In this document: in pieces, positions 53,091 to 55,163 of the stretch | Layout: every line of letters starts with the position of its first letter | Position numbering within the stretch: position 1 is the first letter of the stretch | NCBI GenBank assembly: GCA_014384545.1 | Contig: JACNFQ010000053.1 | Coordinates: 1-55,163 of the forward strand | DNA from: a bacterium | GTDB lineage: Bacteria > UBP7 > UBA6624 | Direction of reading: 5' to 3' | DNA length: 55,163 bases | Notes under the pieces: generated by a model | What the model was told of the DNA's origin: nothing | Databases searched by the model: none | Seen by the model: only the letters and a program-made list of their open reading frames with translations | Program-made: the position numbers and the translations under genes

Positions 53091-53828
53091 CTAGGACCCA
53101 GGCATTTCCATCAAGTAGACAACGGAGAAAATCACAATCCAAACGACATCAACGAAGTGCCAATAAAGGCCTGCTACTTCAACATGGACTGCTTTTTTCT
53201 TTGTGACACCTCCCCAAAACGAGTGGACCAACAAAAGAATCATCCAAAGAACACCCACCGCCACGTGCACGCCATGAAAGCCTGTTAGTAGATAAAAAGA
53301 AGCCCCAAAAAGGTTCGTTTGCATCGTTAGCCCTTCTTCAATAAAAGTAGAGAATTCGAAGACTTGATAGCCCAAGAAAACCAACCCACAGAGAATCGTG
53401 GCCACATTCCATAGACGGAACTTTCCCAAATCCCCCCGTTGAATTGCTGCCAACTGGAGCACCATCGTTAGGGAGCTAGTCAAGAGAATAAAGGTGCTGA
53501 TTGTGGTCGTCTGGAAGTCAAAGACATCAAGGGGCCATGGACCTGTCAAACTCCTTCCTTTATAGACCAAATACCCTGCAATTAAGCTCCCGAACAACAT
53601 GCAGTCGCTAGCGATGTATGCCCACCAAAGGAGCTTGATGTGGGGAACACCAGTCCCCTCGGGCGGCTTAGGGGGACCTTCGGTCTGGTCATCGGGCACG
53701 GCAGGTACCGTTTGGGGTTTCTTTCGAACCAATCCCAAAATACCATAAAAGGTAAAGACTGCAACACCAAACGCAGCGACCACAAGAGCGAGTCCCATTA
53801 GGGGAGAAAGTGTACTGGCAAGAATCAT
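53091..53828 (-). CDS. coxC: Cytochrome c oxidase subunit III
   Basis: 'HIKLLWWAYIASDCMLFGSLIAGYLVYKG', 'FYLLTGFHGVHVAVGVLWMI', 'VEVAGLYWHFVDVVWIVIFSVVYLM'. Confidence 0.95.
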   Translation of the reverse strand: MILASTLSPLMGLALVVAAFGVAVFTFYGILGLVRKKPQTVPAVPDDQTEGPPKPPEGTGVPHIKLLWWAYIASDCMLFGSLIAGYLVYKGRSLTGPWPLDVFDFQTTTISTFILLTSSLTMVLQLAAIQRGDLGKFRLWNVATILCGLVFLGYQVFEFSTFIEEGLTMQTNLFGASFYLLTGFHGVHVAVGVLWMILLLVHSFWGGVTKKKAVHVEVAGLYWHFVDVVWIVIFSVVYLMEMPGS

Positions 53829-55081
53829 TGTCCTGCCTCCATGGGGTGAATATGTTCTCCACCCTCTCCTTCTAAAGCCCATGCAAAGAAAGCGAGTAGC
53901 ATAATGCCCACCCCTGTGAACCCTAGTGCGGGGCTATACAGGAGCCCAAGCCCTCCAAAGAGAATCCCCAAACTTGCGATGGCGGGCATCCAAGACCCCC
54001 CAGGCATGTGGATCCCGCCCTTGTCGGGAGGAAGAGTAGCGATTTCTCGCTTTTCCATCTTGGCAGCCCAAAGTTCATCCCTCTCTTTTACGACGGGTGT
54101 TTGGGCAAAGTTGTATACAGGGGGAGGAGACGTTGTGGTCCACTCCAATGTCCGGGCGTCCCATGGATCGGCAGGTGCTCTCTCTCCGTGGCGTGCTGCT
54201 CGGAGAAGCTCCATAATAAAGAGTAGGACAGAAAGCCCCATCGCAAATGCCCCAAACGTGGCAGCCAAATTGGAAGCACCCCATCCCATCTCGGATGAAT
54301 AGGTGTAGATGCGCCTGGGCATTCCATAAAAACCGGCAATGACCATCGGTATGAATGTCGCATTGAACCCCCAGAAAAAGAGCCAGAAAATCTTCTTTCC
54401 TCGCTTGTCATCCAATAGGCGTCCGGTCATCTTCGGGAACCAATAAGCAATCCCAGCAAAGAGACCGAAGAGCCCCCCACCCACAAGCGTATAGTGGAAA
54501 TGTGAAACGACAAAATAGGTATCATGTTGCTGGTAATCAGATGCCGCAGCACTGTTCATGATTCCTGTCAGCCCCCCCCATAAGAACATTCCAATGAAGG
54601 CAACAGCATACAACATGGGCGTGGTAAATCGAATCTTCCCACCCCACAAAGTAAAGACCCAGTTGAAGATCTTTGCCCCTGTGGGTATCGCAATCAAACT
54701 CGTTGTGAGGGCAAAAGCTGTATTGGCGACAGGCCCCATCCCTACGGTAAACATATGGTGGGCCCAAACCGCAAACCCCAAGAAAGCAATCGTTGCACCC
54801 GAAAAAACGACGACCGGATATCCGAAAAGGGGTTTGCGGGAAAAGGTAGGAAGTATCTCAGAAATGATCCCCATCGGCGGAAGAACGATGATATAAACCT
54901 CTGGGTGTAGTTTTCCTGACTTGTTGGCAATTTCGTGGACGTGCAGTATGGGTTCAAGGTTGTTATGTTGTTGATCTGTCATATTCGTTCTAGCAGATTC
55001 CGCTCCTCCCAGCGTACAGGCCATTGTTTTCGTAAGGTCGCACATTGGGGGATTCGTTAGTGTTGTGTGCGGCTCCGCCAT
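53825..55081 (-). CDS. ctaD: Cytochrome c oxidase subunit I, C-terminal part only (from HPEVY onward); upstream frame open to window edge
   Basis: '[56 protein letters not shown]...[17 protein letters not shown]' is CoxI; residues before HPEVY do not match CoxI. Confidence 0.85.
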   Translation of the reverse strand: [418 protein letters not shown]

Positions 55082-55163
55082 CAGCCCGTCGACTCCTGCA
55101 TCCTCACGGCCTAGTTTTGCGTGTTTATCATTCGCTTTTGTGAGACCACCCCGAACCGAGTCT

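Follow-up and report, generated by a model that had tools for sequence, protein, structure and literature searches.

Cytochrome oxidase at a contig edge

Does the coxA gene that lies at the end of a bacterial contig carry a real interruption in one of its most conserved sites, or was it only cut there by assembly? The window, i.e. the whole stretch of DNA that was analysed (55,163 nt), is contig C74 in full, from a draft genome of 1.39 Mb in 107 contigs (∼79% complete). On its minus strand, ORF reading gives a frame (55162–53825) that is open for 445 codons. The Pfam COX1 profile (PF00115) matches residues 85–306 of this frame (E = 8e-82); the match spans profile positions 210–435 of 436, with the first codon of the HPEVY motif at 54907. 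The abrupt start of CoxI homology at HPEVY, which the original prediction had described from the letters of the window, is therefore real, and the stretch upstream indeed stays open in frame to the window edge. The N-terminal half of CoxI was likewise correctly said to be missing: nothing of it was found within the 55,163 nt, and it sits on another contig of the same draft, C69.

Comparison of C69 with the window shows that DNA identity with the true 5′ half of coxA stops at 54908. The break is placed at 54908/54909, and the 255 nt from there to the window edge are non-CoxI sequence. The earlier estimate (a break near 54915 followed by 245 nt) had the nature of this stretch right, while its figures need correction, the break by ∼7 nt. 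The features of this end of the window are as follows.

53825..54908, minus strand: coxA 3′ part (CoxI, HPEVY to stop codon); COX1 profile 210–435, E = 8e-82
54876..54908, minus strand: 33-nt exact overlap with C69:15005-15037 (the C69 terminus); contig joining point
54909..55163, minus strand: contig-end overhang of 255 nt, not CoxI and not homologous to C69; database searches without match
53091..53828, minus strand: coxC (subunit III), from ORF and sequence; also after coxA in relatives (loci L269 and L270)
52341..53078, minus strand: coxD-like subunit IV with C-terminal CxxCH cytochrome c-like part, from ORF sequence
51447..52298, minus strand: ctaG-like cytochrome oxidase assembly protein, from ORF; order the same in relatives

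Judged by its sequence, the 3′ part of coxA is the C-terminal half of an ordinary haem-copper oxidase subunit I. It is 58–59% identical to the same region in two relatives of the family, in both of which the gene is whole.

The 5′ half of coxA and the joined gene

A COX1 profile search of the whole draft produced two matches only, one on C69 (profile 1–220) and one on C74 (profile 210–435). The two pieces are complementary and together span positions 1–435 of 436; the C69 piece reaches the very last bases of its contig. By the same search the draft (∼79% complete) contains no second complete coxI.

C69 ends in the 33 nt ACACCCAGAGGTTTATATCATCGTTCTTCCGCC, which match window positions 54908–54876 of the minus strand exactly. 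Upstream of this shared segment C69 and C74 are entirely different, the divergence being sharp at one base. The N-terminal part of CoxI, which the original prediction advised to look for beyond the window, is at the end of C69 and comes with the exact 33-nt overlap. Joined at the 33 nt, the two contigs yield a single open frame of 623 aa. Alignment of the joined CoxI with the proteins of the two family relatives (623 columns) has 372 and 371 identities (59–60%) and is gap-free at the join. Conservation is similar on either side of it; in comparison with relative G001 there are 164 identities in 263 positions of the N-terminal part and 208 in 360 of the C-terminal part. The CuB region, GG..LW..LFW..GHPEVY, is uninterrupted in the joined sequence and aligns to the relatives gaplessly.

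Gene content leads to the same arrangement. On C69, ORF reading gives cyoE, coxB, whose end is cytochrome c-like, and a coxA running off the contig end; the order cyoE-coxB-coxA-coxC-coxD-ctaG observed in relatives G001 and G002 is that of C69 followed by the window (the gene names of the operon were taken from ORF sequences). In both relatives coxA is uninterrupted. Among loci of named genomes, coxI reads through the HPEVY site in 80 of 80 when a looser motif pattern is used (a stricter pattern gave 54 of 80). Once the two contigs are joined, no difference from an ordinary coxA of the coxBACD-ctaG operon (PF00115) is left; profile coverage, length, identity and gene order are all alike.

Overlapping contig ends in the draft

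To describe the state of the assembly, 156 contig ends of 400 nt each were compared (the ends of contigs 35–59 were left out, and contigs shorter than 3 kb stood as N). Two pairs of ends overlap end to end by exactly 55 nt. Another 19 pairs form dovetails, with end-to-end overlaps of ∼50–256 nt at 77–98% identity, and several of these have exact runs of 54–55 nt up to a contig terminus. Overlaps of this kind are expected from de Bruijn assemblers applied to strain-variable populations, and the pattern is probably that of a de Bruijn short-read assembly (k ∼55) of a mixed population with strain variation. The dovetails, e.g. C67/C94, C70/C86, C21/C24 and C16/C69 (joined start to start), would allow ordering of many contigs of this draft.

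Among the end-to-end pairs examined, C69/C74 alone has an overhang that is not homologous to its partner; its overlap also measures 33 nt rather than 54–55 nt. A value of 33 is a common intermediate k in SPAdes-type assemblers; C69 may end where an earlier assembly graph (k 33) branched.

The complementary COX1 halves, the 33-nt identity, the gap-free joined CoxI, the operon order, the read-through in 80 of 80 loci and the overlapping ends elsewhere in the draft argue for an intact, ordinary coxA of a bacterial aa3-type oxidase operon that was split by assembly. We consider this explanation very probable. The assembly graph would have had two incoming branches at this point, one true (C69) and the other, of 255 nt, from a different source, which could be a chimeric read, a misjoin or a rare variant of the mixed population. 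The assembler would then have extended the 3′ half of coxA with the branch that was wrong or in the minority, while C69 stopped at the shared 33-mer; the overhang would have no role in coxA.

As in a misjoin, the true neighbour was found at the end of another contig with an exact overlap (the terminal 33 nt of C69). The locus resembles a de Bruijn contig-end misjoin or strain tip in its exact short terminal overlap, its unrelated overhang and the variant overlaps seen at other ends. It differs from the other end overlaps of the draft in the two respects given above, overlap length and non-homologous overhang, and these count against an assembly split, as does an overhang that looks native in GC content and is open in the coxA frame. 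Assembly chimerism and domain shuffling had been rated just as possible as an intron in the original prediction; the overlap with C69 and the continuous gene favour the first of these. This disposes of a false lead: the interruption of coxI was most probably produced by the assembly, and the oxidase operon of this genome is to be read as complete. At contig termini of this draft, gene fusions or introns should not be called before the other contig ends have been checked.

The 255-nt overhang

Searches with the overhang as DNA and as protein gave no match in phages, plasmids, E. coli, IMG/VR or GTDB contigs. There was none in other genomes (97 by DNA, 40 by protein) or in the three genomes of the phylum, none in PHROGs, NCBIfam or PDB, and no significant one in Rfam; a few matches of 25–29 nt with E near 1 are due to chance. 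The phylum is represented in the collection searched by three genomes, the source and two of its family, and appears as a sparsely sampled lineage. A DNA search detected no second copy of the overhang in its own draft genome, and on this account an origin as a chimera with some other recovered region of this genome was rejected. Structured RNA was also considered and rejected, as the overhang folds no better than its shuffled versions (z = −0.13 to +1.05).

The GC content of the overhang is 50.6% (genome, 52.2 ± 3.3%). Its codon usage is just within the range of real genes, near the bottom of it, and near the top of the range of non-coding frames; 2.8% of first-order Markov shuffles are also open in the frame of coxA. 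Given the genome-like GC content and the open frame with borderline gene-like codons, the overhang may be genuine DNA of the organism, or coding DNA of some other source, perhaps the unrecovered fifth of this genome. Most likely it is a misjoined or variant tip of the assembly.

Alternative explanations

Group I introns of mitochondrial cox1 occupy the sites of highest conservation in that gene, positions 714 and 723 among them (PMC5360047, PMC2814812), and the coxA break also falls in a highly conserved part. Given these introns, the idea of a self-splicing group I or group II intron at HPEVY was reasonable, yet the intron models, reverse transcriptase searches, junction bases and pairings lend it no support here. 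An Rfam scan of the region gave no match to group I (RF00028) or group II (RF00029) at E up to 10, and neither model matched in the whole draft (∼79% complete), in searches that did detect their positive controls. No RVT_1 reverse transcriptase was found in this 79% complete draft, although some group II introns carry none. The group I core search covers only the 3′ side of any insert, the 5′ part of which would lie outside the window; for group II domain V/VI, expected at the 3′ end of the intron, which would fall inside the window, there was no match. No homing endonuclease was seen. Group I introns have a U before the insert (5′ splice site) and G as their last base. At this junction the uninterrupted allele reads TTTGG/ACACCC and the overhang AAACT/ACACCC, which breaks the end rule; for any junction later than the start of ACACCC one base would have to be both U and G. 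The nested pairings GACTC/GAGTC and CTCAC/GTGAG, cited earlier as weak support for an intron, are present, but at chance level (two inverted 5-bp pairs versus 1.5 expected in shuffles, P = 0.39), and z-scores of folding lie close to zero or above it. The gene is also uninterrupted in both family relatives and in all 80 named-genome loci; taken together, we regard an intron as extremely unlikely. The junction was also inspected for an intein ending; no C-terminal His-Asn followed by Cys, Ser or Thr precedes HPEVY.

A real insertion or rearrangement could be present in coxA in part of the population, with the 255 nt as its right-hand end and C69 as the uninterrupted allele. The population does look mixed, the overhang is native in composition, and C69 and C74 part sharply at one base; against this, a left-hand end or a further copy is on no contig of the draft, and the overhang found no match among known element proteins or phage and plasmid sequences. 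Interruption of the CuB histidine site means loss of oxidase activity, and an insertion there would inactivate the enzyme. We find such a rearrangement improbable, and distinctly more so its specific form, in which the coxA of some cells is interrupted at the CuB histidine codon by a genuine but unclassified mobile element or intervening sequence, with the 255 nt as its right-hand end. A different kind of real gene would be a truncated CoxI that acquired a new in-frame N-terminus by domain shuffling or fusion, with a separate coxI elsewhere. The 85-codon extension is open, in frame and weakly gene-like in codon usage, as would suit a fusion; however, the genome's two COX1 matches complement each other as halves and do not represent two genes, and coxA of C69 stops exactly where the window takes over. 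The extension is without any relative in the searches, half of the haem-copper core would be absent, and a fusion of this sort is hardly credible.

Neighbouring genes

Downstream of coxA the block is compact: the ATG of coxC overlaps the coxA stop codon (ATGA), and the syntenic block ends with the ctaG-like gene. A perfect 11-nt inverted repeat (54769–54779 and 54829–54839, spacer 49 nt) lies within the coxA coding sequence, probably by chance. In relatives, an ORF with an N-terminal part similar to that of the coxD-like gene comes after coxC. The cytochrome c part (CxxCH) of the coxD-like product is apparently fused via a linker in which the motif EVANPC is repeated; the proteins of the two family relatives seemingly have a cupredoxin-like C-terminus in its place, as read from the ORFs. 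On the plus strand, ORF reading gives a nosD/nosF/nosY/nosL-like block followed by an Rrf2-like regulator (47676–51450), which adjoins the oxidase operon; nosD/nosF/nosY/nosL blocks serve in nitrous oxide reductase maturation.
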